Shown here: positions 3,407-20,493 of the stretch, piece by piece | How the letters are laid out: the number at the start of each line of letters is the position of its first letter | Position numbering within the stretch: position 1 is the first letter of the stretch | From: a virus | IMG/VR virus record: IMGVR_UViG_3300034374_000881 | Span: 1-22,762 of that record | Length of the DNA stretch: 22,762 bases | Direction: 5' to 3' (one strand) | Notes under the pieces: generated by a model | Told to the model about the DNA's origin: nothing | Seen by the model: only the letters and a program-made list of their open reading frames with translations | The model's database searches: none | Position numbers and translations under genes: made by a program

Positions 3407-3924
3407 TACGCAGTGCTCACATTCAATGAAATGGTCGCGGACGTTAGGTTAGTAGTCGTACCTACCTCGCGTATGGTTACCGTTAGGGTAGTAAACTTTG
3501 TACCTGCCCCGGTCTCGGCGATACCCCACATGCGGTCACTCGTAAGGGCGAGCCAAGACCCAGTCGTTCCGGTCTCAAGCGCCGAGCCGCTGACGGTGGC
3601 AAAGCACTCATAATTGCTGGCTTCGCTGTTGGGGTCTACCCAGTCCTCGATATACGTAGTCGGGGTTCCGGCAGTGGTTCCGGTGTATTTGTACACTTTG
3701 CCGTCGCTATCCAGTTGGTAGCGGGCGTAGGCATCTTGCGGAGAAACGGCGTTAAAGAAGATGCTCTGGTTAGTGATAGCCACAACCACGCGATTGTATA
3801 TTTCTTCCCATACACCTGAGACTTTAACAAATGCAGCTTGCACGTCTTTCCACACGCCGCCGACGTTGACCTGCGGGTCGTCAATAGTTTCCCAAGTACC
3901 GGATACTTTAGAGTAAATCGTCAT
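3406..3924 (-). CDS. Trp-repeat structural protein
   Basis: A 172-residue protein beginning at the ATG that overlaps the fibre stop (ATGA); a longer frame with six extra residues lies inside the fibre gene. Residues 6-42 are three copies of a 14-residue unit with Trp at 11, 25 and 39 (VSGTWETIDDPQVN, VGGVWKDVQAAFVK, VSGVWEEIYN). The rest is a beta-sandwich-like domain ending in LTVTIREVG and SATISLNVSTA. Such W-repeat N-termini occur in phage tail and fibre proteins. Its stop overlaps the next start (TAATG). A tail or baseplate surface role is inferred. Confidence 0.55.
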   Translation of the reverse strand: MTIYSKVSGTWETIDDPQVNVGGVWKDVQAAFVKVSGVWEEIYNRVVVAITNQSIFFNAVSPQDAYARYQLDSDGKVYKYTGTTAGTPTTYIEDWVDPNSEASNYECFATVSGSALETGTTGSWLALTSDRMWGIAETGAGTKFTTLTVTIREVGTTTNLTSATISLNVSTA

Positions 3925-5846
3925 GCTGTATACTGGAACCAAACATCGCCGTCAGAACCGCCCGACGGAGCACTAGTTGAGATCGTCACATCGCGGGTAG
4001 CCATGGAGCCGATACCTAGGTTAGTCCTAGCGTCAGAGGCTGTAGAAGCGCCCGTGCCCCCATCGGCGACCGCGAGATCGGTGATGCCTGTTACAGAACC
4101 GCCAGTAATAGACACGCTAGCTGCTGACTGAGTAGCAATAGTGCCAAGACCAAGATTAGTCCTAGCGTCAGCGGCTGTAGAAGCGCCTGTACCCCCATCA
4201 GCAATCGCGAGATCAGTAATCCCTGTAATTGAGCCGCCCGTAATAGATACGCTGGCCGCTGACTGAGTAGCAATAGTGCCAAGGCCAAGATTGGTCCGAG
4301 CAGTAGTCGCATCGCTTGCGCCCGTGCCGCCATTGGTAACAGCCAGATCAGTACCTGACCAATTGGAGTTGTTTATGGTATTTGCAGTGGCGAGAGTGCC
4401 TAGGCCAAGGTTGGTCCGCGCACCTGCTGCGTCACTTGCTCCGGTGCCGCCGTTAGCAATGGTTAGGTCAGTCCCACTCCAGTCTGCGTTGCTAATAGCA
4501 AGTGTACCGCCTAGTGTTACAGTCCCCGAGCCGGTTATGGGTCCACCAGTCAGCGTCAGCCCGTTTACTGAGCCTGATGTCCCTACGCTGGTAACTGTAC
4601 CACCCCCGGCAGTTGGGGCCGCAATGGTAATCGATCCGTTGCCGTTGGTGATAGTGATACCTGCACCCGCAGTAAGCGTCGCTTTAGTTAGCGTATTGCC
4701 AGTGGTATTGCCGATAAGCAGCTGGCCATCGGTGAAGGAGGATTGCCCTGTACCGCCGTTAGCAACCGAGAGGTCCGTACCCGACCAGTTGTCGTTATTA
4801 ATAGTGTTGAGGGTCGCCAACGTGCCGAGACCTAGAGCAGAGCGTGCGCCCGAAGCGGTCGTAGAACCAGTACCGCCGTTAGCAATTGCTAGCGTACCTG
4901 TAATTCCGGTAGTTAGGGATACGTTAGTAATGGTATTGTTCGACCCACTAATAGTTTTGTTAGTGAGTGTTTGCGTACCCGTAAGAGTTACAATCGACGC
5001 GCTGTCGGTAAGGTCCGTAGAAGCAACTGAACCGAGGTCAACAGTAGGGTTACCCGATACGCCATTGCCATTGGAGATGCTGATCTTAGCGCTACCTGCG
5101 GTTAGCGTGCGCCCTGCAAATGTATCCGTTGCAGTCTGAGTTAGCAGCCCGTTGGTATTGTACGCGGCGAGTGCCGTCAGGGTTGCGTCGTAAGCTTGGA
5201 CATCTGAACCAATAGCCACCCCAAGATTAGTACGTGCGGCTGAAGCTGTCCCCGCACCCGTGCCGCCATCTGCAATAGCGAGGTCGGTAATCCCGGTGAT
5301 TGAGCCGCCAGTAATAGATACCGAAGTAGAGTTTTGTGTGGCGATAGAACCGAGACCCAGATTGGTCCGTGCACCAGAGGCAGTTGTGTCGCCAGTGCCG
5401 CCAGAGGCTACAGGAAGGGCGGTGCCAAGAGTGAGCGAAGTGAGGTGAGTTACTACATCTACGACGTTGGTGGCGTTATTAAACACCCACATGGTTTTAC
5501 CGGCAGGCACCGCAATGCCCGTGCCCGTCGAGTTCTTTACCGTAACCGCGTCTGCGCACCCGTTGCTGACTATGTACACTTTCTCGATTGCGGGCACGAT
5601 TAGGTTACGTGCGCCGCCCGTAGTGCCGGTCAAGTTAAGACGCATGTGGCGAGCAGCCTGCGTAGTGTTAGCGTCCGTAAGCGTAAGAGTAACGTCTCCG
5701 CTAGAGAACGAAACGTCCGACGAACCGACAATAGCTTCTTCCAGCGTGGTGCCGAGGTTGGTGTTGGTTACACTACCCCAAGCGCCGGAGTTCTCACCGG
5801 TCCCCATCAACTGGATTTTAAGATTAGTGCTGTAGGTGCTCGCCAT
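3921..5846 (-). CDS. Long tail fibre with GGTG repeats
   Basis: A 641-residue protein. The N-terminal attachment domain has STNLKIQLMGTGENSGAWGS, VTNTNLGTTLEEAI and NLIVPAIEKVYIVSNG, which is a common phage tail-fibre start. From residue 145 on, GGTG motifs occur at 149, 194, 324, 364, 466, 505, 551 and 596 in units such as ADGGTGASTAADARTNLGLG followed by TIATQSAASVSITGGSITGI. The C-terminus TISTSAPSGGSDGDVWFQYT has the form of a fibre end shared by many fibres. AGGAAACAG precedes the ATG. Expected to form a trimeric fibre binding the host. Its last 4 bases overlap the next gene (ATGA). Confidence 0.72.
   Translation of the reverse strand: MASTYSTNLKIQLMGTGENSGAWGSVTNTNLGTTLEEAIVGSSDVSFSSGDVTLTLTDANTTQAARHMRLNLTGTTGGARNLIVPAIEKVYIVSNGCADAVTVKNSTGTGIAVPAGKTMWVFNNATNVVDVVTHLTSLTLGTALPVASGGTGDTTASGARTNLGLGSIATQNSTSVSITGGSITGITDLAIADGGTGAGTASAARTNLGVAIGSDVQAYDATLTALAAYNTNGLLTQTATDTFAGRTLTAGSAKISISNGNGVSGNPTVDLGSVASTDLTDSASIVTLTGTQTLTNKTISGSNNTITNVSLTTGITGTLAIANGGTGSTTASGARSALGLGTLATLNTINNDNWSGTDLSVANGGTGQSSFTDGQLLIGNTTGNTLTKATLTAGAGITITNGNGSITIAAPTAGGGTVTSVGTSGSVNGLTLTGGPITGSGTVTLGGTLAISNADWSGTDLTIANGGTGASDAAGARTNLGLGTLATANTINNSNWSGTDLAVTNGGTGASDATTARTNLGLGTIATQSAASVSITGGSITGITDLAIADGGTGASTAADARTNLGLGTIATQSAASVSITGGSVTGITDLAVADGGTGASTASDARTNLGIGSMATRDVTISTSAPSGGSDGDVWFQYTA
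4017..4334 (-). repeat. 135-base GGTG coding repeats
   Basis: Three GGTG units at residues 505, 551 and 596 (spacing 46 and 45 residues) are nearly identical at protein level over about 45 residues and share long DNA segments, including TAGTCCTAGCGTC- and AATAGACACG-type stretches on the plus strand. A related single unit lies in the fibre at 12298-13704. Confidence 0.7.
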
Positions 5847-5855
5847 ATCTGTTTC

Positions 5856-6860
5856 CTATGTAGGTATTTCTTCCCAAACGACCGTATTCCCATCGTTTAC
5901 AGCCTGCCAGTTCGGGGTTTGGTTGTCGTTTATCTCGCCCCAAACAAGCGGCCTAGTAATTAGCCCGACCCCTTGTACACCAGTTATAGTAACTTGTGAA
6001 TTACCCGCAGTACTTACCGTACCTATTGCCCCGGTCGCCGATACCGACGTTACAAGTATAAATACTGGTATAGAAGCAGTGACATCGCCGACTTCGCCGG
6101 TACCAGATACGCCGGTTAGCGTTGCGCTGCCGCCTATGGAGAAAGAAGGAGACCCAACTACTGTAGTGGCTTCTACACCCGATACCGTTACAGACGCGTC
6201 TGCCGCCTGTGTCGTTGTACCAAGCTCCCCAGTGCCCGTAACTCCCGTAAGCGTAAATTCAACGAAGATACCGGAATCTACTGTGCCTACCTCGCCCGAT
6301 GCGCTAACACCGGTAAGCGTGACATTGGCGTCTCCGGTAATATCTACCGGCGGGATTGCGCCATCTACTATAGCGGTCGCTTCGACCCCGCTAAGCGTTA
6401 CATCTACATCGATATTAACAGCGGTAGTGCCGACGGCACCCGAAGCGCTGACCCCAGTAAGGGTTACACTGCCGTCTACCGAGAAGGTAACACTACCAAC
6501 TCCGCCAGTTGCTTCTAGCCCGGTAGGTGAGGCGGTCGCTTCTGCGGCAGCGGTGACATTTCCTGTCTCCCCACTTGCCTGCACGCCCGTAACAGTAACC
6601 GGCGTTAAAAGCTCTATAGTTAGCGTACCAAGCTCGCCGCTTGCAGAAACCCCCGTGAGTGAGGCAGATGCTTCAGCGGTTACACTGACTGTGCCTACTG
6701 CGCCGGTAGCTTCTACCCCCGTAGGGAATACACGTTTTGCAGTGTCTACGGTAACCGAAGAAAGTCCTGCACTGGCGGATACACCGGTGACCAAAACCTC
6801 CGCACTCTGCGAACCAAGCGCTGAGAACGGGGCAGTAGAAAACGGTGAAATACCGAACAA
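5856..6860 (-). CDS. Virion protein made of 22-residue beta repeats
   Basis: A 334-residue protein with a TTG start (6860-6858): AGGAGA lies 6 bases before it, and an in-frame stop closes off any earlier start. After MFGISPFSTAPFSALG comes a series of about 13 units of the form TGVSASGEVGTVTV-x8, starting at residues 25, 47, 69, 91, 113, 135, 157, 183, 205, 227, 249, 271 and 293. Spacing is 22 except one 26-residue unit. The end is VWGEINDNQTPNWQAVNDGN and WEEIPT, Trp-rich. This looks like a rigid beta-solenoid or shaft between two end domains. Similar proteins occur in environmental phages; I do not know a characterised one. Confidence 0.6.
   Translation of the reverse strand: MFGISPFSTAPFSALGSQSAEVLVTGVSASAGLSSVTVDTAKRVFPTGVEATGAVGTVSVTAEASASLTGVSASGELGTLTIELLTPVTVTGVQASGETGNVTAAAEATASPTGLEATGGVGSVTFSVDGSVTLTGVSASGAVGTTAVNIDVDVTLSGVEATAIVDGAIPPVDITGDANVTLTGVSASGEVGTVDSGIFVEFTLTGVTGTGELGTTTQAADASVTVSGVEATTVVGSPSFSIGGSATLTGVSGTGEVGDVTASIPVFILVTSVSATGAIGTVSTAGNSQVTITGVQGVGLITRPLVWGEINDNQTPNWQAVNDGNTVVWEEIPT
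5952..6788 (-). repeat. 66-base coding repeats (13 units)
   Basis: Coding repeat of 22 residues with the core TGVxAxGxxGTV (Ser replaces the first Thr in two units). One unit is 26 residues long. DNA copies are diverged, so the array is old or maintained by selection. The zinc-ribbon protein at 15286-15639 ends with one similar copy. Confidence 0.7.
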
Positions 6861-6888: not shown

Positions 6889-7482
6889 TTATTTGAACGG
6901 CGGCCCCCCTACCCATACCACAATACTCTTGCGTAAGCCATGCGTTACTGGCGTGACTCTATGTAGTCTATAAGACGGGAAGGCGATTACCGTGCCCCTA
7001 GTAGCGTCGGGTTCAGTGTCGTCTTTAGTTGTCTTTACCTGTAACTTACCACCTTTATACTTTTTTGGGTCGGTTAGTGGCAGCACCATACTTAGCTTTC
7101 TGGGCGTGTTAGTGTCGTCGCCCGCGTCAACGTGCCACTCGTAAAAACTTTTGTGGTCACTCTCGTAAACCGTAAACTGCATGTCCTCTACAAACCCGGT
7201 AAGATCGAACCGGTAGAACTGCGCGTTTAACTGCCTAGCTATATATGCCATACGGTCGTAGAACCATTCGGTCTCAGCATCTAGAGTTATCCAGCCGACT
7301 TTGGATTCCCGGACGCCTTCCGTATTCTCGTTGAAGGCTAGCGTGGCAGTAGTCGTAGCTAGCTTGTCGCAATAAGCCTCGATCCTATCCAACTCTTCCT
7401 CGGTGAATCCCCCTTCCCAAGTAACAAAGCTTTGATTTTCACCGTTTTGTGGGGGCATATCTAAGAAATTATATATAGCCAT
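6889..7482 (-). CDS. 2-oxoglutarate/Fe(II)-dependent dioxygenase
   Basis: A 197-residue protein with the double-stranded beta-helix core of 2OG-Fe(II) enzymes. The metal ligands are the HxD of FYEWHVDAG (His117, Asp119) and a distal His174 in RLHRVTPVTHG. Arg184 in LRKSIVVWVGG is placed to bind 2-oxoglutarate. The strand KLSMVLPLTDP, then GGKLQVKT, and RGTVIAFPS before the distal His match prolyl-hydroxylase-like (P4H/PiuC-type) enzymes. The start at 7482 is chosen because it lies 1 base after the previous stop; an extension of 14 residues upstream would overlap the preceding gene. Substrate unknown: it may hydroxylate Pro, Lys or Asn of a virion protein, such as the nearby glycine-triplet protein, or act on a host target. 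Confidence 0.8.
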   Translation of the reverse strand: MAIYNFLDMPPQNGENQSFVTWEGGFTEEELDRIEAYCDKLATTTATLAFNENTEGVRESKVGWITLDAETEWFYDRMAYIARQLNAQFYRFDLTGFVEDMQFTVYESDHKSFYEWHVDAGDDTNTPRKLSMVLPLTDPKKYKGGKLQVKTTKDDTEPDATRGTVIAFPSYRLHRVTPVTHGLRKSIVVWVGGPPFK

Positions 7483-7483
7483 A

Positions 7484-8203
7484 TCACTTACGCCTGTGGA
7501 GGTTGTCGCGGTAAATGCTCTCATGCACCAAGCTGCGGCGCGCTCTAAGCTGTTCGGTGTTAGCTACCTCTATGTCCGTCATTTTACGGCTGCGGGACTT
7601 TGGCAGTAGTTCATCTTTCTTGATAGGTATAACCTGCACAAGCGGGGTTCCCGCAGGGAGTATCTCAGACGTGTTTTCTTGGTGCCAGACGAACGGGAAA
7701 TTTATGTATTCCTGCTCGTAATATGGGTGGTCAACAAAACCAGAAAAACAAGTAAACCGTGGTTCAACGCGGTTAAGTGGGGGTATAAATAGGAGACTAT
7801 ACTCGGGTGGGGTCTTAATCATCCAGTAATTAAGAAACTTCATGGGGGGTTTAGGAAGTAACGGGTTAGGTGATTTCTCTGTGGTTATTTGTTCAAACGT
7901 ATGCGTTTCAACCATATTTTTATGGAACTTCCACTCGAAGTTCACACCAGACGCATCTTCATTTGTTTGAAAGTGCACGTCAGCCGCAAGTGGTATGATG
8001 TAGCCCACGCACAAAGCATCTAAAAATGGCATGCACCGTTTGATCGTAGAGGTGTTAAACCCTTGATTGCCCAGCTTGGGAGGCAGCGCCTTGAACCAAT
8101 CCGGGATATCTTTTTTGGCAGCAAAAGGGGCTGGTATGATCCCCCAGTCTTCCTCCGCGCAAAGGAATTCAATTTCCTTCGCCTTAAATACGCTCTTAAA
8201 CAT
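7484..8203 (-). CDS. Phage hypothetical protein, DUF6065-like
   Basis: A 239-residue protein. It has IIPAPFAAKKDIPDWFKALP near residue 22, TIKRCMPFLDALCVGYIIPL (53-72), FVDHPYYEQEYINFPFVWHQ (about 156-175), then PLVQVIPIKKDEL and a basic C-terminus RSRKMTDIE. The PAPxxxKxIPxWF start and the later GTPLVQVIPI region recall DUF6065 proteins of bacteria and phages, a cupin-like assignment that I hold only from memory. AGGAGC stands 6 bases before the ATG. It overlaps nothing and is followed by the dioxygenase gene, whose start is 1 base past its stop, so the two are probably expressed together. Confidence 0.55.
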   Translation of the reverse strand: MFKSVFKAKEIEFLCAEEDWGIIPAPFAAKKDIPDWFKALPPKLGNQGFNTSTIKRCMPFLDALCVGYIIPLAADVHFQTNEDASGVNFEWKFHKNMVETHTFEQITTEKSPNPLLPKPPMKFLNYWMIKTPPEYSLLFIPPLNRVEPRFTCFSGFVDHPYYEQEYINFPFVWHQENTSEILPAGTPLVQVIPIKKDELLPKSRSRKMTDIEVANTEQLRARRSLVHESIYRDNLHRRK

Positions 8204-8211
8204 GGTAGCTC

Positions 8212-8415
8212 CTAATTTTGGCCGTTGCCTTCCTTATAGACAATGTTGCCTTTTTCGACTTCTACCATACATCTGTCAACTTCTTGCTTGCCTCTTAAGA
8301 TGTGATCGTCATGCAAATTTAATTGCTCGTTGTTGTTGATCCAATCTCTTTGGTATTGCGGCAGTTGGTCAAAGCAAGCCATCACCACTGCTAGTCGGTT
8401 GTGGTCTATCCCCAC
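8212..8415 (-). CDS. Small helical hypothetical protein
   Basis: A 67-residue, polar helical protein: [20 protein letters not shown], then [20 protein letters not shown] and [19 protein letters not shown]. Its GTG start (8415-8413) overlaps the end of the glycine-rich gene by 10 bases; an ATG 11 codons further in (8382) is an alternative, as no convincing ribosome site decides between them. Function unknown. The gene is preserved in a gap with no other coding option and its stop is next to the next gene's AGGAGC site. Confidence 0.45.
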
Positions 8416-11400
8416 GACACAACTACTTGTCCGTCACTACTACCGGTACCCACTGTTACGCTAATCGTTTGGTACGGCCAAACTTTTGCTGCGTTTGTGC
8501 TATTCGTAGCTGCAACAGAGCCAGCGTTTCCAGCATTGCCGGAGTTGAACGAACCCGCATTGCCCGGAGTAGCGCCTGTACCGTTGTTACCCGCAGAGCC
8601 AGCATTGCCCGCCGCGCCAGCATTTCCGGGAGCGCCAGCATTACCGTTTGTTGCACCGGTGCCCGCAGAGCCTGTATTACCGGCATTGCCATTTGCGCCA
8701 TTCTGACCCGGCCACGTATTCGGGGCTGCCCCGCCGCTCGTTGCACCTGTACCGGCAGCGCCTGTATTACCTGCATTTCCGTTCGCGCCATTCTGGCCCG
8801 GCCATGTGTTTGGAGCCGCGCCACCCGAAGTAGCCCCGGTACCTGCACTGCCAGTATTACCTGCATTACCGCTAGCACCATTCTGACCCGGCCATGTATT
8901 TGGTGCCGCACCACCTGCGGTAGCGCCTGTACCAGCAGCGCCGGTGTTACCCGCGTTGCCATTAGCTCCATTTTGACCCGGCCATGTATTTGGTGCGGCA
9001 CCACCTGCGGTAGCGCCGTTACCTGCGGCACCTGTGGTACCTGCGTTGCCGTTCGCGCCAGCATTTCCGGGGCTTCCCGCACCGCCCGAGTTTGCACCCG
9101 TTCCAGCATTACCGTTGGAGCCAGAGTTGCCGTTAGCACCGTTCTGACCGGGCCAAGTGTTTGGAGCAGCGCCACCTGCATTGGCTCCTGTGCCTGCGTT
9201 ACCGCTAGCTCCAGTGTTGCCATTTGCGCCCGCACCGCCCGCATTTCCGGGGTTGCCAGCTACACCTGCACCGCCGCCGCCACCGCCGCTACCTCCGGGT
9301 ATATCCAGTTTGGTGTCACCCGACCCTCCGTTTCCGCCAGCGCCGCCGCCCGGACTACCGCCCGCCCCTCCGTTACCTGCAACGGTGCCTAAAGCAGAGT
9401 TACCTGCACTACCGCCGGGGTTACCGCCAGCACCGCCCGGAATGCCCCCGCTCGTGCCTCCGCCTCCGCCGTTGCCGCCCGCTCCGCCGTTACCCGCATT
9501 GCCTGCTGCCCCATTGTTTCCGGGGTTGCCACTTCCGCCAGCGTTGCCGGGATTACCAGCATTACCGCGTGCCCCGCCGGGGCCTCCTACGCCATTGTTA
9601 CCTGCGTTACCGGGGTTACCGGCATTGCCGGGGTTACCAGCATTACCACGGGCACCGCCAGCGCCGCCGTTACCATTATTTCCGGGGTTACCCGCATTAC
9701 CTTTAGCGCCAGCATTGCCTGCTACACCGGCTGCACCGCCGGGACCGCCCGCACCATTATTTCCGGGGTTACCAGCATTACCTGCCGAGCCTGCATTACC
9801 TGCATTACCACGTGCGCCTCCGGGGCCGCCCACTCCGTTATTGCCCGGGTTACCGTCATTGCCCTTAGTACCTGCATTGCCCGCTGAGCCTGCACTGCCC
9901 CCCGGGCCACCCACCCCGTTATTCCCCGGATTGCCTGAGTTACCTTTAACGCCAGCATTGCCTGCTACACCGGCTGCACCGCCGGGGCCACCTACCCCGT
10001 TATTCCCCGGATTGCCTGAGTTACCTGCGGTGCCATCATTACCTGCGGACCCGCCATTACCTGCTGCGCCGCCCACTCCGTTGTTTCCGGGGTTACCGGC
10101 AGTGCCATCGTTGCCGGGGTTACCTGCTGCGCCTGCTACACCATTTGATCCCGTGCCGCCGTTCCCTGCTGTGCCGCCTGCTCCGCCGGGGCAGGTTATA
10201 TAGGAACCGAAAGAACTTGCATTACCTGCATTGCCATTATTGCCGGGGTTGCCGTTCGCTGCACCAGTACCGTTATTACCCGCTACTCCGGGGTTGCCTG
10301 AACCGCCCGGATTACCGGCGGTGGCTCCAGTGCCGTTTGCTCCAGCATTGCCGGGGTTACCATTCGCTCCAGACTTACCGGGCCAAGTACTTGGAGCAGC
10401 GCCGCCGTTTGTCGCACCCGTACCTGCTGCGCCCGTGTTTCCGGCATTACCGTTTGCACCGTTTTGACCGGGCCAAGTGTTTGGGGCAGCGCCCCCGCTT
10501 GTAGCTCCCGTCCCTGCTGCCCCTGTATTTCCGGCATTGCCGTTCGCGCCGTTTTGGCCGGGCCAAGTGTTCGGTGCGGCACCCCCACTTCCGGCTCCGG
10601 TACCAGCGGCACCTGTAGTGCCCGCATTCCCATTGGCCCCTGCATTGCCGGGACTTCCGGCTGCACCTGAATTAGCACCCGTACCGGCGGCACCTGTATT
10701 ACCTGCGTTTCCGTTGGCCCCGTTTTGTCCGGGCCAAGTGTTCGGCGCGGCCCCACCAGCGTTTGCACCACTCCCCGCATTACCCGTGTTTCCGGGGTTA
10801 CCGTTAGCGCCCGCGCCTCCGGGGTTGCCCGCATTGCCGTTTGTCGCACCGTTACCGTTTGCGCCTGTAGAACCTGCGTTTCCGTTTGCGCCCGCATTGC
10901 CGGGGTTGCCTGCGGCACCTGAGTTAGCACCTGTACCTGCGCTACCGTTATTACCTGCCGCGCCCGCATTACCGGCGTTACCCGCAGTTCCGGGAATACT
11001 GAAATTGGTAGAGCCAGCGCCCCCCGATCCCGCATTGCCTGAATAGCTTGTGCCTGCGCTGCCGGGGTTGCCTACAAAAGTACCCGCACCGCCTCCGCCG
11101 CCTCCGCCGCCGCCTCCACGACCACCAGCATTACCAGCATTGCCGGGGTTGCCCGCACTGCCGCCTGCGCCTCCAGTTCCCCCATTCCCGTTATTTCCGG
11201 GGTTACCATTGTTGCCTTTAGACCCAGCGTTACCTGCACTTCCGCCTGTACCGGCATTGCCTCTAGCCCCATTGTTTCCGGGGTTACCCGCATTGCCTGT
11301 GCCGCCAGCGTTACCGGCGTTGCCTCGGACTCCGCCCGGACCTCCTACCCCATTATTACCGGGGTTGCCGTTGTTGCCTTTAGTGCCTGCGTTACCAGCA

Positions 11401-11942
11401 TTGCCTCGCGCCCCGCCAGCACCACCTGCGCCGTTATTACCGGGGTTACCCGCATTTCCTTTTGCACCGGGGTTCCCTGCGGCCCCCGCATTGCCTCCGG
11501 GACCACCTACGCCATTATTGCCCGCATTACCGGCATTACCCTTGGTGCCCGCATTACCTGCAACGCCCGCCGCACCGCCCGGACCACCAACGCCATTATT
11601 GCCGGGGTTACCTGCGTTACCCTTAGCGCCTGCATTACCGGCAACGCCAGCGGCTCCACCGGGACCCCCAACACCGTTAGTACCTGCATTACCGGGGTTA
11701 CCTGCGCCACCGGTATTCCCTGCGGCACCTCCATTACCGGCTGCCCCCGCAACACCGTTATTACCCGGATTACCTGCGTTACCCGCAGTGCCGGGGTTGC
11801 CAGCATTACCGGGGTTACCTGCGCCACCTTTACCGGATACATTAACGCTATATATGCCAGTCGGTACTATGAATGTCCCGGGCGCATTAAAGGTTATTGT
11901 CCCCGCCGCAGAACCGTCCACATTGAGGTGGCTAAGAGGCAC
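8406..11942 (-). CDS. Giant glycine-triplet repeat virion protein
   Basis: An 1178-residue protein with a GTG start (11942-11940) preceded by GGGGAGG six bases upstream. Residues 1-40 ([20 protein letters not shown]) and the last 25 ([20 protein letters not shown]) are the two ends of a phage glycine-rich domain, and everything between them is glycine-repeat. Residues 57-272 and 616-831 are each eight copies of a 27-residue unit (nine Gly-x-y triplets, e.g. [13 protein letters not shown]). Each array is followed by a poly-Gly patch (275-286 and 884-892) and by 30-residue units carrying [10 protein letters not shown] (Trp at 403, 460, 490, 520, then 930, 987, 1017, 1047, 1077). Likely a long tail or fibre protein folding as collagen-like or polyglycine-II helices. 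It ends just inside the next gene's start. Confidence 0.72.
8643..9179 (-). repeat. 90-base WPGQ coding repeat group 2
   Basis: Units with [10 protein letters not shown] at tryptophan residues 930, 987, 1017, 1047 and 1077, spacing 57, 30, 30 and 30. The 57-30-30 pattern repeats that of group 1, displaced by 527 residues, with one extra unit. Several units are nearly identical in protein sequence. Confidence 0.75.
9450..10097 (-). repeat. 81-base coding repeat array 2 (eight units)
   Basis: Eight more 27-residue units, starting at residues 616, 643, 670, 697, 724, 751, 778 and 805, of the same kind as in array 1. The two arrays have the same number of units and begin 559 residues apart, which indicates duplication of a larger block. 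Confidence 0.75.
10353..10760 (-). repeat. 90-base WPGQ coding repeat group 1
   Basis: Tandem units with [18 protein letters not shown] at tryptophan residues 403, 460, 490 and 520; the last one has PSTWPGKSG. Spacing is 57, 30 and 30 residues. A 30-residue unit is ten triplets, of which those with the Ala-Pro-Asn-Thr-Trp-Pro stretch break the strict Gly-x-y rule. Confidence 0.75.
11127..11774 (-). repeat. 81-base coding repeat array 1 (eight units)
   Basis: Eight tandem 27-residue units in the glycine-rich protein, starting at residues 57, 84, 111, 138, 165, 192, 219 and 246, each opening with a GN-xGxNG-type motif followed by VGGPGG or similar. Spacing is exactly 27 residues (81 bases) throughout. 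The unit is nine Gly-x-y triplets, so reading frame and triplet phase are both kept. Copies are diverged at DNA level but clearly related. Confidence 0.75.
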
Positions 11943-14468: not shown

Positions 14469-15128
14469 TTACCCCACCGGATATCTAACTTGAGGGGTAC
14501 GATACATATCTTGACGGTTCTTGCCATCCCCCAGCTGCTTGAGCATACCAAGCGCTTCATCATACCGCTGCTTATACACCGTGATTACATCCGGCTCGCT
14601 CTTCATATAAGTAGCAGCCTCTAACAGCGAACCATAAAGCAGCACGCTATCGAAGTTATCTCCGAGCCACGTGGTATTGGCATCCACAATCGATGCCGGG
14701 TAGTAGAAGTAGTGGAGTTCGACATCATAGTCGTCGTCCGGCGTCGGGCCGAGGATAAAAGAATCTTTATCAAAATACGCGTAGTGCGTCGGCTTGCCCG
14801 TAGCAGATGGGTTCGGGAACGCTTCCCGGATAAAGTTCACGTCTTTATCTAGCAAATACTCATAGCGTCCGTCGCTATCGATGACTGCAATAGAGAAGGT
14901 AGCAAGCCAATCTGCGGGGGCGGATAAGTACTTATTTCCGGAAGTACACGAACCAGTCACGTTTTTACGCAGGTCAAGTAGCTGCACAGAGTTAAACACG
15001 CGCTCTTCCGCCTGACGGATAAACGTGTCCAGCTGCTCTGTTGACGTAAGGCCACCAGAACCTGCGGTATCCGGAAAGTCGTTTTCCGCATACGCCTTAA
15101 TGGTAGAGACTAGTTCGGTATAGTTCAT
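14469..15128 (-). CDS. Head-tail adaptor-like protein (SU10 adaptor type)
   Basis: A 219-residue protein beginning MNYTELVSTIKAYAEND, then QLDTFIRQAEERVFNSVQLL (N-terminal helices), a beta core with YLSAPADWLATFSIAVIDSD and THYAYFDKDSFILGPTPDDD, the segment LHYFYYPASI, and C-terminal helices LLYGSLLEAATYMKSEPDVI and YKQRYDEALGMLKQLG. This order matches adaptor proteins of podoviruses such as SU10 or the head-tail connectors related to gp6. It starts 3 bases after the previous stop. I infer that it rings the portal and connects it to the tail. The family name is from memory of the pattern. Confidence 0.6.
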   Translation of the reverse strand: MNYTELVSTIKAYAENDFPDTAGSGGLTSTEQLDTFIRQAEERVFNSVQLLDLRKNVTGSCTSGNKYLSAPADWLATFSIAVIDSDGRYEYLLDKDVNFIREAFPNPSATGKPTHYAYFDKDSFILGPTPDDDYDVELHYFYYPASIVDANTTWLGDNFDSVLLYGSLLEAATYMKSEPDVITVYKQRYDEALGMLKQLGDGKNRQDMYRTPQVRYPVG

Positions 15129-15131
15129 CCG

Positions 15132-15281
15132 TTAGCCCATTTTCTTGCTAGCGCCACAACCCTTTGTCGCCGCACCGCAACCGCGAATACGTACTGTTTG
15201 AGTATTAGGCACTTTATTTGGGTACCCGTCTACTTTTGGAACGGGTGTCATTTTCATGGTCGAGTGGTTTTTAACGCGCAT
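15132..15281 (-). CDS. 49-residue Cys/Gly-tailed peptide
   Basis: A short frame, easily missed, filling the gap between two larger genes. AAGGAT lies just before the ATG, and it starts 4 bases after the zinc-ribbon gene's stop. The protein is basic, with MKMTPVPKVDGYPNK and the C-terminus RIRGCGAATKGCGASKKMG. The RGxGAATKG motif recurs at the ends of many small phage proteins and echoes the GCGIAKRGLTKG tail encoded at 17051-17353. Length, ribosome site and motif support it as real. Function unknown. Confidence 0.6.
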   Translation of the reverse strand: MRVKNHSTMKMTPVPKVDGYPNKVPNTQTVRIRGCGAATKGCGASKKMG

Positions 15282-15285
15282 ATCC

Positions 15286-15639
15286 TTACTCCGTAGTTAC
15301 GGTTACTGTTCCTAGTGCACCCTGTGCTTCTAACACATCTTCGAGTCCGGACAAACCCAAAGGGTTATTTAGCCCTACAGGACTCCAGCCCCACTGAATG
15401 TCCCGGCTCTGTTGGTAGCTGTTGTCGGGACGTGGGTTGCGTAGTGCTTGGGGGTCTTCAATACGATACATACCCAGTTGAAGTTGGGGCTGATCTTCTT
15501 CCCAGCAAGTTGGGCATACGAGGAGGTTGACCTCTTTGGTCTTAATGACAATGCTTTTCAGCTCTTTGAGTTTGTACCGAAACCCGCATCTATCGCATTC
15601 TGCGATAGCCTTTTTGCCGAGTGCGTAGTTACTAGACAT
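15286..15639 (-). CDS. Zinc-ribbon protein with a C-terminal tail-repeat copy
   Basis: A 117-residue protein. Four cysteines at 15, 18, 42 and 45, as CDRC and CPTC, form a zinc-ribbon in the first 50 residues. The middle part (LGMYRIEDPQALRNPRPDNS, residues 55-74) is Pro-rich. The last 15 residues, LEAQGALGTVTVTTE, look like a single copy of the 22-residue repeat that fills the protein at 5856-6860. AGGGGGTG stands 5 bases before the ATG. The position among neck genes suggests a virion or assembly role; DNA or protein binding by the ribbon is possible but unproven. Confidence 0.6.
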   Translation of the reverse strand: MSSNYALGKKAIAECDRCGFRYKLKELKSIVIKTKEVNLLVCPTCWEEDQPQLQLGMYRIEDPQALRNPRPDNSYQQSRDIQWGWSPVGLNNPLGLSGLEDVLEAQGALGTVTVTTE

Positions 15640-15647
15640 AACACCCC

Positions 15648-16355
15648 CTAGAGATACATCTGCCGAGGCGCTATTCTCAGTGTAGCCTTTTCGCGGTCTT
15701 CATCGGCGGCCTGCTGGAACAACTCTTCGTATTCCATCTTAAGCATTGCGGTACGTTCTAGCGCGCCGGGTACCTTACGGGACAGGTGGTATGCAAGCCC
15801 TGCAACCATGCAGGGGAGAAAGCGAAACGGGATATCCTGAGTGTTAACGCCATCGCCTGCGTCTTGGATGCGGCGCAGTCTCCAATAAACAAACGTATAA
15901 GTGTTAGCGCCATCGGGGGTAGGCCACACATTGATCTGCGGGTTAGCTACGCCGCCCGACTCGGTTGCGCCCGACTGCCGGTTAATCCAGACTTGGATGG
16001 GACGACCCTGAGCGTTTTTGTTCGGGATCGTCGAGTAGGTATCCACGCTGATACGGTTGATATTGATGTCAGACTGGTTTGTGCCTGTGCCGGTGCGGAT
16101 TACGTGGTCGAGAAGGTCAATAGTATCTACCGGAAGGTCGTAAGCAATCTGCCCCTGTACCAGCGGTATGCTGCCTTGCTCGATGGTCCATAGGTTAATC
16201 CCACGGTTAGCCCACTCGATGGTGAGTAGGTTTAGGCTACGGCGAGCCGTACGTAGGTCATATCCCGTACGCAGCTCAGCGCCGCAGCGCTCGAAAGCCT
16301 CTTCGACTAACGAGTTGAGGTCGAGGTTAAATGCAGAAGTGCCGGTAGTGGTCAT
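15648..16355 (-). CDS. Phage neck or tail accessory protein
   Basis: A 235-residue protein with an N-terminal helical region (LNSLVEEAFERCG, YDLRTARRSLNLLTIEWANR), a central beta part with LPVDTIDLLDHVIRTG, RPIQVWINRQ and INVWPTPDGANTYTFVYWRL, then a helical end FLPCMVAGLAYHLSRKVPGA and EDREKATLRIAPRQM. Neck adaptor proteins of podovirus-like phages have this helix-beta-helix layout. Another adaptor-like gene lies 1.2 kb downstream. GAAGGAAG precedes the ATG, which overlaps the previous stop. It probably joins portal and tail, but this is inferred from architecture and location. Confidence 0.6.
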   Translation of the reverse strand: MTTTGTSAFNLDLNSLVEEAFERCGAELRTGYDLRTARRSLNLLTIEWANRGINLWTIEQGSIPLVQGQIAYDLPVDTIDLLDHVIRTGTGTNQSDININRISVDTYSTIPNKNAQGRPIQVWINRQSGATESGGVANPQINVWPTPDGANTYTFVYWRLRRIQDAGDGVNTQDIPFRFLPCMVAGLAYHLSRKVPGALERTAMLKMEYEELFQQAADEDREKATLRIAPRQMYL

Positions 16356-16630
16356 TTCTTCTTCCTTCGAGCCGCTTCTACTCTTCTAGGCTTACCCGCC
16401 GGTTGGCCTAGACGTTTCTTTTGTGCGATACGCTTGCGCTTCTCCGACGTAGTCATCTCAGATGACGTTTTAGGTGTTTTGCTGGACACCCGTTTTGTCG
16501 GTCTGCAATACGGCGTACCGCGTTTTTCACCTTTCTTACGTCCGCAAGCTTTGCCTGTACGTACGTCTTTCCAGTCTTCCTTAAACCAGCGCTTGAGAGC
16601 GGCACCTTTTGCTGTCTTACGAACGGCCAC
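16352..16630 (-). CDS. DUF5872-like small basic protein
   Basis: A 92-residue protein starting at a GTG (16630-16628) that has GGGG upstream and overlaps the previous gene by 14 bases. The frame stays open further upstream, but that part is the shadow of the preceding gene. The motif LKRWFKEDWKDVRTGKACGR, then KKGEKRGTPYCRPTKRVS, is the signature I associate with DUF5872, found in phages and large DNA viruses. The C-terminus is Lys/Arg-rich. With its neighbour it makes a pair of domains often seen together. Molecular function unknown. Its stop overlaps the next start (ATGA). Confidence 0.6.
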   Translation of the reverse strand: MAVRKTAKGAALKRWFKEDWKDVRTGKACGRKKGEKRGTPYCRPTKRVSSKTPKTSSEMTTSEKRKRIAQKKRLGQPAGKPRRVEAARRKKK

Positions 16631-16805
16631 TCTTAGTACCCCAGTTCTTAGCGCCTTTCTTACGGCACTTAGCGATAGCGCCCGAGGCATAGGCGGATGG
16701 GAAGACCTTATACCGAGACTTGACCTTATTGTAGCAGGCATCCTTAACGGAGCCGCCCTTGGCCATGCCCTTCCTAATCTTACCCATGCCACGGCACTTC
16801 ATCAT
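16617..16805 (-). CDS. Small Cys/Lys protein, SRYKVFPSAYASG family
   Basis: A 62-residue protein when started at 16805, 1 base after the previous stop, with AAGAAG upstream; a longer frame begins inside the previous gene but has no advantage. It has the N-terminal module CRGMGKIRKGMAKGG and a distinct C-terminal segment VKSRYKVFPSAYASGAIAKC followed by RKKGAKNWG. The same kind of segment is known to me from environmental phages and giant viruses, without a known function. Its last 14 bases overlap the next gene's GTG start. Confidence 0.6.
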   Translation of the reverse strand: MMKCRGMGKIRKGMAKGGSVKDACYNKVKSRYKVFPSAYASGAIAKCRKKGAKNWGTKSGRS

Positions 16806-16806
16806 A

Positions 16807-17049
16807 TTACTTCTTCCTAAGCTTCGCCAGCGTCTGGGCAAAGCGCGCACGCTGGCCCATCTTGCCGGGAGCCTTAGCGGCCTTGGCCAACTTCTTAGCC
16901 GGAATCTTCTCGCCCTTCTTCACACCGAGGCTCTTGCGGAGCGAACCCGGCTTCTTGATGGCTTTGGAAATATCCAACTTGCCGCCCTTAGCCATACCCT
17001 TCGGCATTTTAGACTTCATCATCTTACCCATGCCACGGCAACCACGCAT
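16807..17049 (-). CDS. Very basic small protein with MAKGGK motif
   Basis: An 80-residue protein with Lys or Arg at roughly one residue in three. It opens MRGCRGMGKMMKSKMPKGMA, then KGGKLDISKAIKKPGSL, and ends ARFAQTLAKLRKK. The opening RGCRGMGK-KGMAKGG is repeated in the next gene (MKCRGMGKIRKGMAKGG), so the two genes share an N-terminal module. It starts 1 base after the previous stop. No known domain was recognised. Its composition resembles nucleic-acid-binding or virion internal peptides. Confidence 0.55.
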   Translation of the reverse strand: MRGCRGMGKMMKSKMPKGMAKGGKLDISKAIKKPGSLRKSLGVKKGEKIPAKKLAKAAKAPGKMGQRARFAQTLAKLRKK

Positions 17050-17050
17050 G

Positions 17051-17353
17051 TTAGACCATCCGACCCTTGGTCAGACCGCGCTTGGCGATACCACAACCCT
17101 TATGGTTAACCTTACCACCCTTGGCCATCTTGTGGACCTTACCGCCGCACTTCATGCCCCTAGGCATACGCTCACGCAGCTTCTTAAGGCTTTCTGCTTC
17201 CCGCTTTTGTTCGCGATTACCGCGTTCAACTGCACCCTTATCGAGTTCCTTCGACTTACGCTCCGCCTCTTTACGGTCAGCGTCGCGCTTTGCAGTGCGT
17301 TTTTCAAGGTCATCTATTTTCAGGGTGACCATTGGTCCACGTTTACCCGGCAT
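17051..17353 (-). CDS. Charged helical protein with KGGK tail module
   Basis: A 100-residue protein. Residues 10-65 are almost entirely Lys, Arg, Glu and Asp in a single long helix (coiled-coil-like), followed by MPRGMKCGGKVHKMAKGGKV and the end GCGIAKRGLTKGRMV. The last 35 residues match the tail of the protein at 17817-18131 in layout (KGG, HKMAKGG, G-x-GI, TKGxM). The start overlaps the holin-like gene by 11 bases, with AAGGA 7 bases before the ATG. Function unknown; a role in packing nucleic acid or in virion assembly is conjecture. Confidence 0.6.
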   Translation of the reverse strand: MPGKRGPMVTLKIDDLEKRTAKRDADRKEAERKSKELDKGAVERGNREQKREAESLKKLRERMPRGMKCGGKVHKMAKGGKVNHKGCGIAKRGLTKGRMV

Positions 17354-17537
17354 CGTTAGTATCCTTACCCAAAAGTTTTTGAACAGTACGTGTTTCGTAA
17401 ATACGAATCCCCGTCCATACGACGGTAAACAACGCGGCGGCAGCGGGGAGAAATTCAGCCAATGTACCTAACACCGTAGCTATAGAAAGCCCGTCCACTA
17501 CGTGCTTTACTGTTTCCGAAGGATGGATAACGCTCAT
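17343..17537 (-). CDS. Small membrane protein, holin candidate
   Basis: A 64-residue protein. A hydrophobic stretch covers residues about 14-46 (DGLSIATVLGTLAEFL, then PAAAALFTVVWTGIRIYE), giving one or two membrane helices, with a short charged tail RTVQKLLGKDTNDAG. Small size, membrane helices and a charged C-terminus are typical of phage holins, and the WxxIRIYET motif recalls holin-like proteins of podoviruses. No endolysin gene is in this window, which weakens the call. The next gene overlaps its end by 11 bases. Confidence 0.5.
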   Translation of the reverse strand: MSVIHPSETVKHVVDGLSIATVLGTLAEFLPAAAALFTVVWTGIRIYETRTVQKLLGKDTNDAG

Positions 17538-17538
17538 T

Positions 17539-17817
17539 TTAACAATCCCAAGCTCTAAGCGATTTATTAATCCGCGAGTTTGGGTCGCGGGCGGTTTTGG
17601 CCGAAGTTAGTTTCTTCTTCATGCCCTTCATGCGTTTGCAGAAGCTCTTACGTCGTGCCGCCGACTTGGGCGACTTTTTGGCCTGCGCCTTTTTTACCGG
17701 CGCTTTGAGGCCCGGCTTCCCCGGATTGGCACGGTTGTAGGAAGCGCGACCCTTTGCGTTGAGTCCGCCTTTAGGGTTCTTGCCCGCCTTACGTGTCCAT
17801 GCCGGAGACTTAGCCAT
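17539..17817 (-). CDS. Lys-rich phage protein, DUF6321-like
   Basis: A 92-residue, strongly basic protein beginning MAKSPAWTRKAGKNPKGGLN and continuing AKGRASYNRANPGKPGLKAP, then KSFCKRMKGMKKKLTSAKTA and RDPNSRINKSLRAWDC. This layout matches a small phage protein family that I recall as DUF6321, common in environmental phages; the name is from memory and unverified. No enzyme motif is present. The charge suggests contact with DNA or acidic virion proteins. Its start overlaps the previous stop (TAATG), and the next gene begins 1 base after its stop. Confidence 0.6.
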   Translation of the reverse strand: MAKSPAWTRKAGKNPKGGLNAKGRASYNRANPGKPGLKAPVKKAQAKKSPKSAARRKSFCKRMKGMKKKLTSAKTARDPNSRINKSLRAWDC

Positions 17818-18131
17818 TATCTCATTTTCCCCTTGGTGTGGCCCTGACGGCAGATACCGTCGCCACGGCGGCAGCTTACTTTACCGCCCTTAGCCATCTT
17901 CTTGACCTTACCGCCCTTGCGCATGGTAGGTTCAGCGCCAGCCGTCATTCCGCCTTCCGGCTCACCCGGTTTTTTCTTCTTTTTCTTGCGGAGAGCTTTA
18001 TGGGCCGCCATACCAGCTAAGCCGAAGCCGCCGTACTTCGCGATATCGCCGAGGCCAATTTTGCCGCTTGCGAGACCGTATCCGAGGCCGCCGCCAAGAA
18101 CGCCCGCCATTGCTTTACCGACTTTACCCAT
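17817..18131 (-). CDS. Basic glycine-rich protein with KGGK tail module
   Basis: A 104-residue protein. Residues 1-46 are Gly/Ala-rich and hydrophobic (GVLGGGLGYGLASG, FGLAGMAAHKA), like a glycine-zipper membrane or packing segment. They are followed by a run of six Lys and a Gly/Pro linker. The C-terminal part has MRKGGKVKKMAKGGKV, a paired-Cys segment CRRGDGIC and the end QGHTKGKMR. That tail is related to the end of the protein encoded at 17051-17353. The start overlaps the glycosyltransferase stop and its own stop overlaps the next start, so translation is coupled. Function unknown. Confidence 0.6.
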   Translation of the reverse strand: MGKVGKAMAGVLGGGLGYGLASGKIGLGDIAKYGGFGLAGMAAHKALRKKKKKKPGEPEGGMTAGAEPTMRKGGKVKKMAKGGKVSCRRGDGICRQGHTKGKMR

Positions 18132-18865
18132 TAAACTAGTCCTTCTTCATGATCTACCATGGGATATAGCACATCTTCGCCGAAATTACCGACATATTCT
18201 TGCACACCCATGTGGCCTAAAGTAATTGTTGGATCGATCCAGACTTCATAGCCTGCTTCTCTTGCGCGATCACAGAATAGAAAGTCTTCGCCGATGTAAC
18301 CCTCAGGGGTTACTTTGAAATCAAACACAGCGTTAAGCTGCTTATCTGCACGTTGATCGTAGTATCCCCACTCCGGGTGAGCGCCAACCAGATCAGTAAA
18401 TACGTTGCGGTTAACCCACATGAAGGCCGTAGCCACACGCTCAGCGCGAACTAGCCCCATACCGTTCATGGTAATATGGCCGTTCTCATCTTGGTCTAGG
18501 TCGGTGATATAGCGCAGTTTCTCGTCGCGCACACGGGGAGGCGCAGCCACGATACCCTTGTCCGGGTCAGAACCCCAAGCCATCAAACGCAGAATAGCAT
18601 CTGGCTCGAAGTTGATGTCGCTATCAATAAAAAGAAGTTCAGTGCACTCAGAGTCAAGGAAGTCACGAACAAGTAGGTTGCGGGCACGCGAAACCACGGA
18701 ACAGCCGCAGATACTTCCGATCTGCAAACTAATCCCGTGGCGAGGCGCGGCCTGTGCAAAACGAGCAAGCGATACGGCCAACTTCAAGGATACCTTAAAG
18801 TCGTACGCGGGAAGCGCGATAAATATACTACGGCCCGCTAGATCGAAGCCCTGTTCGTTTTGCAT
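18131..18865 (-). CDS. Glycosyltransferase, GT-A fold (family 2-like)
   Basis: A 244-residue predicted nucleotide-sugar-dependent transferase. Visible signs are an N-terminal beta strand with IFIALPAYD (14-22), SRARNLLVRDFL (59-70), the metal-binding DSD within LLFIDSDINFEPDAI (81-83), a mid-domain GMGLVRAERVATAFMWVNR (acceptor region), and a C-terminal GEDFLFCDRAREAGYEVWID (192-211) with the probable catalytic acid, then a histidine in LGHMG (218). These match the order of GT-A enzymes. No membrane span is seen, so it should act in the cytoplasm. The gene starts 3 bases after the previous stop, and its stop overlaps the next start (TAATG). Phage enzymes of this sort can modify virion proteins, DNA or host surface sugars; its acceptor cannot be told here. 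Confidence 0.75.
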   Translation of the reverse strand: MQNEQGFDLAGRSIFIALPAYDFKVSLKLAVSLARFAQAAPRHGISLQIGSICGCSVVSRARNLLVRDFLDSECTELLFIDSDINFEPDAILRLMAWGSDPDKGIVAAPPRVRDEKLRYITDLDQDENGHITMNGMGLVRAERVATAFMWVNRNVFTDLVGAHPEWGYYDQRADKQLNAVFDFKVTPEGYIGEDFLFCDRAREAGYEVWIDPTITLGHMGVQEYVGNFGEDVLYPMVDHEEGLV

Positions 18866-19581: not shown

Positions 19582-20493
19582 TTAGGCAGCGCCTTCGGAA
19601 CCGTACATGCCCAGTGGGTCGCTCCAGCCAAAGCTGTAACGCTCACGAGCCTTATAACGTACGTTACCGGTGTCGAAGTCACCGTCCATGCCCGTAGCCA
19701 TCGGCGTACGAACAAAGTGCTTCAGACCGTTAGGTACGTCGGTCGTCAGGAACCACGCATCTGAGTCGGTGAGGAAGTGGTTAACTGTGTAACCCTCCGG
19801 AATCGCACCGTTTGACTTGATTGCGTTGATGTCGTTGTCAGCAGTGCCAACACGAAGTTCCGTTTCAAGCAGGCGAGTCGCAACGAACTGAAGGTCCGAA
19901 GGAATAACCAGCTTGCGAGGCTTAGCTGCAATCAAGAGACCGCGCTCGTCTGTCCATCCAGCAATTTGGATAACAGCAGCTTCAAGCGAAGTTTCGTTGA
20001 GGTCAGCAGCGACCGACGGAATGTTTGAGTTCGTGCCACCTGAGACCAGTGGGTGTGAAGCCGAGAACAGTGGTACGCCATCGCCGCCGACAAAATCGGA
20101 ATCGAAGCCGTTGTTCAGGACCGCAGCAGCCTTAGTCTGCTTGGTGTACGACATCGCACGGGCAAGCGCCTTAGTATAACGAGCCGAGAGGCTGTCATAC
20201 AGGTTGTCTTCAATCGCTTCTTCCGTGAGCGAGAACCCGAGGGCAATCGTTTCGTGGTTGTAGCGAGCAGTGAAGACTTCCTGAGCGTTGTCGTAGGAAA
20301 TCGCCGAACCTTCGTTCTTAACCGGAGCAGCCGAGAAGCCCGACAGCTTGGTTTCTTCTTCGAAGCTACGCTCTGAAGATTCAGTTTCGAAGATTTCCTT
20401 GTGCTCTTCGCCGTAACGCGAATACTCAAGACCGAACAGGGCGTTCAGTCCCGGCAGAAGCTCCTTGAGGAGTTGTGCGCGTGAAATTGCCAT
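19582..20493 (-). CDS. Major capsid protein, Mu gpT-like (HK97 fold)
   Basis: A 303-residue protein. Features of the Mu gpT-like major head family are visible: an N-terminal region with EYSRYGEEHKEIFETESSE, the segment ARYNHETIALGFSLTEEAIE (about 75-94), LFSASHPLVSGG (about 142-153), a stretch on surface domains PRKLVIPSDLQF, and a C-terminal YKARERYSFGWSDP. Length is normal for this group, and no separate prohead protease or delta domain is evident here. A very strong AAGGAGA site precedes the ATG by about 7 bases, as expected for the most abundant virion protein, and a perfect-stem terminator follows the stop. The order GroES-like, scaffold-like, decoration-like, capsid supports the call. 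Confidence 0.82.
   Translation of the reverse strand: MAISRAQLLKELLPGLNALFGLEYSRYGEEHKEIFETESSERSFEEETKLSGFSAAPVKNEGSAISYDNAQEVFTARYNHETIALGFSLTEEAIEDNLYDSLSARYTKALARAMSYTKQTKAAAVLNNGFDSDFVGGDGVPLFSASHPLVSGGTNSNIPSVAADLNETSLEAAVIQIAGWTDERGLLIAAKPRKLVIPSDLQFVATRLLETELRVGTADNDINAIKSNGAIPEGYTVNHFLTDSDAWFLTTDVPNGLKHFVRTPMATGMDGDFDTGNVRYKARERYSFGWSDPLGMYGSEGAA

Follow-up and report, generated by a model that had tools for sequence, protein, structure and literature searches.

Why should small proteins with unrelated bodies, encoded in one short region between the head and tail genes of an aquatic phage, carry the same short peptides? The question is raised by IMG/VR virus record IMGVR_UViG_3300034374_000881, the whole of which (22,762 bases) was analysed here as the window. 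It covers the structural region of the genome of a tailed phage, read on the minus strand, in the order scaffold-like protein, cement-like protein, major capsid protein, a cassette of small genes with an SU10-type adaptor, connector protein and tail genes. The cassette lies at 15132-18131, between the capsid genes and the tail-connector genes, and consists of five small genes singled out by a sequence-only reading together with genes for a DUF6321 protein, the C-terminal half of DUF5872, a holin-like protein and a protein with two CxxC pairs. We tentatively propose, as a possibility somewhat short of probable, that this is a late cassette of small cationic head-cargo proteins whose end-tags are a shared docking or packaging signal, similar in its working to the capsid targeting sequence (CTS) of phage T4.

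Short modules are shared within the cassette

The pentapeptide MAKGG was found in four of the small genes (KGMAKGGS in 16617-16805, KGMAKGGK in 16807-17049, HKMAKGGK in 17051-17353 and KKMAKGGK in 17817-18131). The first two also carry CRGMGK at the N-terminus, and C-terminal GxG[AI]..TKG was present in 17051-17353 (GCGIAKRGLTKG) and 17817-18131 (GDGICRQGHTKG), with a relative, RGCGAATKG, in 15132-15281. The modules themselves are thus as the sequence-only reading described them. The positions that it quoted as gene starts (16617, 16807, 17051 and 17817) are really 3' ends, because all cassette genes are on the minus strand, and the genes that it took to be adjacent are separated by the holin-like gene, DUF6321, the DUF5872 C-half, the SU10-type adaptor and the Cys-rich gene.

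That reading had also named Lys/Gly composition as a possible source of the similarity. In 100,000 composition-preserving shuffles the real sharing was never matched: MAKGG occurs in four of five proteins (shuffle maximum 2), CRGMGK in two (maximum 1) and GxG..TKG in three (maximum 2). Ten 5-mers were shared among seven cassette proteins, compared with a mean of 1.0 and a maximum of 8 in 20,000 shuffles. The sharing of modules is therefore real and strong. The four MAKGG copies of the window differ at synonymous sites, which argues against a fresh DNA duplication.

One terminal tag occurs on many unrelated bodies

When IMG/VR was queried with the connector protein, at least 599 related stretches were returned, of which 80 loci were kept. 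Profiles of the modules, built from relatives and run on the window and these 80 relatives, the check that had been suggested for them, gave 104 hits for the C-terminal tag, 78 for GAATKG and 39 for the RGMG head, and none in shuffled frames. The two C-ends in the window proved to be divergent members of a C-terminal tag that is frequent in the small-gene cassettes of the relatives, roughly xKGGxVxSASKRADG[C/I]Ax[R/K]GKTKG[K/R]M[V/I/C]. We extracted 261 distinct C-tagged proteins from the loci (32-512 aa, median 127), and every one had a positive net charge (median +12). When their bodies were clustered at a blastp threshold of 1e-5, they fell into 133 unrelated clusters. The tag was C-terminal in 264 of 280 terminal cases and N-terminal in the other 16; a family of about 62 aa carries it at the N-terminus. 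Eleven of the 12 longer contigs contained the tag, with 1 to 4 hits per contig spaced a few kb apart. The 3' ends of tagged genes lay 0.8-5.0 kb upstream of the connector gene where measured, and none lay downstream.

Tag and body occur in various combinations. Among 109 DUF6321 proteins in phage loci, 13 have the tag after the domain and 96 lack it, and the tag is therefore portable. The N-terminal RGMG head was found on 87 RKAQ, 14 GALR and 7 SAYASG proteins, and the C-tag on 8 of 108 copies of the SKKQ module. These combinations bear out the idea, also put forward in the sequence-only reading, that a short functional tag is shuffled among proteins. No two tagged bodies inside one phage were similar. 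Codons at identical tag residues agreed in 46.7% of cases within loci and 39.8% between loci, with 38.5% expected from the bodies; agreement so little above expectation indicates that selection acts mainly on the peptide.

At the DNA level, the pattern of the tag core was found in at least 120 viral-contig stretches. In 257 Gb of prokaryote genomes it was found in five contigs, the viral collection being the smaller of the two. One of these five, metagenome-bin contig L292, has a complete cassette of the same kind, flanked by capsid and adaptor genes. A Pfam scan of 168 tagged proteins for a telling enzyme returned DUF6321, DUF6496 and weak, chance-like hits only. A 203-aa C-tagged protein at 4606-5217 of L292 (also in L296 and L297) looks ADP-ribosyltransferase-like by eye (YRNMS...WWS...DVE), and no search supported this. 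A tblastn search of cultured phages with the 104-aa window protein gave no match. Searches of the literature for the tag strings and DUF6321 found nothing relevant, and the sole mention of DUF5872 was in a list of genes from a giant algal virus. Within the literature covered by these searches, the tag has no description.

Cassette bodies recur in virion proteins of other phages

The SAYASG, DUF5872 C-half and DUF6321 bodies, and the SKKQ module of the relatives' cassettes, recur in large cyanophage and jumbo-phage proteins. The SAYASG module of the 16617-16805 product was found in 366 phage records, almost all of them cyanophages. In several cyanomyoviruses (S-E7, S-SM1, Syn9 and S-SCSM1) it is joined with DUF6321 and a DUF5872-like stretch in a single protein of 440-530 aa near the terminase genes, and in S-SSM7 the same modules are divided between two proteins. 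Several of these large proteins are linked to virions. DUF6321 forms the C-end of S-CREM2 ORF137 (i-E 4.8e-17), for which mass spectrometry (MS) of CsCl-purified virions gave 4 unique peptides (PMC10665884). S-SCSM1 gp029 contains SAYASG, a weak DUF5872-like match (i-E 0.004) and DUF6321 at its C-end; the label 'virion protein' was given to it by authors whose MS work identified 45 virion proteins (PMC9602691). The relatives' SKKQ module corresponds to the N-terminus of CBB_322, which was represented by 30 unique peptides in virions (PMC5259590), and phiKZ gp165.1 (L087 8001-8177) is a stand-alone SKKQ module with 77% identity over 43 aa to the cassette module. From these homologies we infer that the cassette proteins of this phage group would be located in the virion. 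The role in DNA or capsid binding or in targeting that the sequence-only reading offered for the modules is plausible, given that homologous bodies occur in other phages' virion proteins.

AlphaFold2 predicted DUF6321 with confidence as a small helical domain (pLDDT 86.8). A fold search with this model found no match in PDB, and many cyanophage proteins were matched in BFVD. Other BFVD matches were an AAA-annotated phage protein of 1143 aa (A0A6J5R4H4, E=3.7e-4) and, weakly, a ferritin/Dps-annotated phage protein of 679 aa (A0A6J5N5R9, E=0.17). The model of the GALR protein was of low confidence.

Candidate protease sites lie between fused modules

Joined modules were surveyed in 33 unique contexts, mostly from cyanophage-like contigs (L213-L288, L083, L084, L209-L211). 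With boundaries that depend on where the profile match starts, a Glu stood two residues ahead of the DUF6321 match in 27 of the 33 (82%; Glu makes up 7.5% of these proteins), and Gly, Ala or Ser followed that Glu in 29. Similar steps from Glu to a small residue occur ahead of the SAYASG and DUF5872-like modules, and linkers of quite different sequence have this ending in common. The T4-type prohead protease cuts after Glu (PMC5694885). The steps may thus be prohead-protease sites, and cleavage there would free the modules inside the head. Common descent accounts for part of their conservation, and inspection of cyanophage capsid and scaffold sequences for a protease site gave no firm consensus. 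This protease-site-like pattern was seen solely between fused modules in cyanophages; the proteolytic release of tags suggested earlier for the present cassette was not borne out.

Known motifs were also compared with the cassette and rejected. The Pfam KGG stress-induced repeat motif (PF10685) matched no cassette protein at E up to 1. The spacing of a Walker A P-loop (GxxxxGK[ST]) fits the tag, but several tags, the two of the window among them, have H, L or R in place of its Lys, and the chain ends almost directly after the motif. With an E limit of 5, neither SAYASG nor the CWxGY module nor the fused protein matched the virus-specific two-cysteine adaptor (Pfam 2C_adapt, P64 type).

Genes of the window

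Features of the cassette and its surroundings are collected in Table 1. By comparison with relatives, the true start of the open reading frame (ORF) at 16617-16850 is 16805 (62 aa) and that of the ORF at 16352-16792 is about 16690 (112 aa). The DUF6321 assignment scored 80 bits against a Pfam cut-off of 28.5. ORF 16352-16792 scored 55.1 bits against the DUF5872 cut-off of 27.5, for the C-half alone, and ORF 16617-16850 scored 15.1 bits against the N-half, below the cut-off. The SAYASG and DUF5872-C genes thus match the N- and C-halves of one Pfam family; if the starts taken from relatives hold, they overlap by 74 bases (16617-16690, minus strand) in different frames. The GALR body of the 16807-17049 product has 78% identity across 54 aa with HTVC027P gp44.

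Table 1. Positions of cassette genes and neighbouring structural genes in the window.
Position	Strand	Feature	Details
14469..15128	minus	virion structural (connector) protein, search anchor	phrog_2941 E=2.9e-20
15132..15281	minus	49-aa protein, RGCGAATKG near C-end (15159-15185)	
15286..15639	minus	117-aa protein, two CxxC pairs, cassette region	counterpart in locus L292; Pfam matches weak only
15648..16355	minus	SU10-type adaptor	PF24175 E=4.4e-12
16352..16690	minus	DUF5872 C-terminal half, 112 aa	PF19197 E=1.4e-14; start from relatives, ortholog in locus L007
16617..16805	minus	62-aa protein: CRGMGK head, KGMAKGGS (16749-16772), then two-cysteine SAYASG module	phrog_727 E=8e-18
16807..17049	minus	80-aa protein: N-terminal CRGMGK head (17023-17049), KGMAKGGK (16978-17001), then GALR body	
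17051..17353	minus	100-aa cationic protein, C-terminal KGG + TKG tag	tag residues 76-100 at 17054-17128; MAKGGKVNHKGCGIAKRGLTKGRMV fits C-tag profile
17343..17537	minus	holin-like protein, 64 aa, one predicted hydrophobic stretch	weak Pfam holin match E=0.041; same position in locus L292
17539..17817	minus	DUF6321 protein, 92 aa, untagged in window	Pfam PF19846 E=2.1e-22; tagged in 13 related loci
17817..18131	minus	104-aa cationic protein, C-terminal KGG + TKG tag	tag residues 79-104 at 17820-17897; MAKGGKVSCRRGDGICRQGHTKGKMR fits C-tag profile
19582..20493	minus	major capsid protein	phrog_371 E=2.6e-22; PF25209 E=8.6e-13

Outside the cassette, all on the minus strand, a glycosyltransferase-like protein is encoded just upstream (18131-18865) and a 2OG-Fe(II) oxygenase at 6889-7524 (phrog_61 E=2.9e-30). 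The tail genes include an 1178-aa collagen-like protein of GNAGNxG repeats (8406-11942), of which long opposite-strand open frames are a by-product. Repeat-built proteins of the tail region lie at 3921-5846 and 5856-6860 (VANGGTGA..ARTNLGLG; VTGVxASGxxGT).

Discussion

Our proposal is that the small cationic cassette proteins would be produced along with the proteins of the head and connector, and would be packaged into the head. Their bodies would be free to vary between phages while a short Gly/Lys end-tag stays constant, in the form of a KGG unit plus ADG[CI]Ax[RK]GKTKGxM[V], as RGxGAAxxG, or as RGMG...KGG when N-terminal. This end-tag may be a common docking or packaging signal, and the packed proteins would be bound to the DNA and probably pass into the host cell together with it. 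Joined modules would need no tag each, and modules in separate genes would each carry their own. The tag as a packaging signal, its binding partner and ejection into the host are speculative. We are more doubtful of the wider generalization that aquatic phages load a variable set of over 100 kinds of small proteins into the virion via one C-terminal signal, and that in cyanophages some of these modules are loaded as a pre-joined chain, possibly cut apart by the prohead protease.

Several points weigh against this proposal. The window holds just two C-terminal TKG tags, and no docking partner for the tag is known. S-CREM2 ORF137, S-SCSM1 gp029 and CBB_322 all lack the tag, and they therefore inform on the destination of the bodies and not on the action of the tag. 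A search for a virion proteome of any phage of this group found none. Tags were more similar within a phage (0.671) than between phages (0.533), above the maximum of 5000 label permutations (0.654), by a statistic that ignores phage kinship. Finally, the separate modules of HTVC027P lack the RGKTKG tag, so the tag is not required everywhere, and this weakens the account of tags on separate genes.

The most serious rival, unlikely in our estimate, is that these are protamine-like DNA binders whose Gly/Lys/Arg ends grip the phosphate backbone, so that the packed genome is neutralised or condensed with no specific docking partner. The uniformly positive charge of the tagged proteins is what such binders would have, the fused modules are likewise cationic with two conserved cysteines, and condensation of viral DNA has been shown for the ascovirus virion protein P64, which combines two-cysteine motifs with basic repeats (PMC6163548). 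A need for charge alone, however, would not explain why the motif is ordered, with Gly and Thr near-invariant, and ends 1-2 residues before the C-terminus, nor why Cys and Ile interchange at a fixed tag position, and the two-cysteine adaptor of Pfam was not matched. We consider it improbable that the proteins act in the infected cell, the tag directing them to a host target (on the nucleoid, ribosomes or membrane, for example) with virion presence not required. Variable bodies would suit host-interaction proteins, but the cassette is surrounded by genes for head and connector proteins, and several of its bodies have homologues among virion proteins. Slightly less probable still is a role as minor neck, tail or capsid structural parts that are held by the tag and are not internal cargo. 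The genes adjoin adaptor genes, and the GAATKG protein was detected by profile in 78 of 81 sequences (the window and the 80 related loci), directly upstream of the connector gene in inspected loci; tagged proteins nevertheless vary in number (1 to 6 profile hits per locus) and in body, unlike fixed connector parts. That the module repeats have no protein function, and stem from a DNA element or from chance where genes are Lys/Gly-rich, is very improbable in spite of the low-complexity, K/G-rich bodies: the shuffles rule out chance from composition, the codon differences among copies rule out recent duplication or a DNA element, and the tag pattern is concentrated in the viral collection.

Should the tag prove to be a packaging signal, sequence alone would suffice to list the internal proteins of a large uncultured group of aquatic phages, more than 100 'hypothetical' families would become testable virion cargo, and phage capsids might be loaded with chosen proteins by means of a portable C-terminal tag.

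Comparison with known systems

The T4 CTS is an N-terminal peptide of 10-20 residues that the prohead protease removes, and propeptides are also found on giant-phage ejection proteins (PMC5694885). As with the CTS, one short terminal peptide here is common to several different, unrelated small proteins of a phage that are encoded with the head. Unlike the CTS, the tags are mostly C-terminal and Gly/Lys-rich, no cleavage site was seen in them, and their part in packaging is conjectural. The tag would at most work like the T4 CTS; we claim for it neither kinship to the CTS nor membership in any known tag family.

The cyanomyovirus T4-GC119/phrog_727 proteins have the SAYASG, DUF5872-like and DUF6321 modules by profile match, but joined in a single chain, with linkers rich in Glu and without end-tags, whereas here the modules are in separate genes. 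The HTVC023P-type Pelagibacter phages (HTVC023P, HTVC027P) do have separate small module genes near the portal and capsid genes, and HTVC023P gp32 and gp51 carry a C-terminal RGxGAAxxG tag. They differ in the missing RGKTKG tag of HTVC027P and in a connector protein of only about 31% identity. The available part of the HTVC027P transcriptome paper (PMC12753301) gave no timing for the module genes. Two large HTVC027P proteins before the portal-like gene, gp41 and gp42 (L082 21952-26083), have single GGRIGY/GGRVGYADG motifs, another GG-basic motif.

Ascovirus P64 resembles the cassette proteins in its charge and its two-cysteine motifs with basic repeats, but is one large protein of an insect virus, to whose adaptor family the cassette has no sequence match. 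Polyvalent proteins (PMC5512222) are likewise modular, and it has been predicted that they travel in the capsid and are injected; they are large enzyme-rich chains, whereas the modules described here are mostly in separate small genes with no recognised enzymes.

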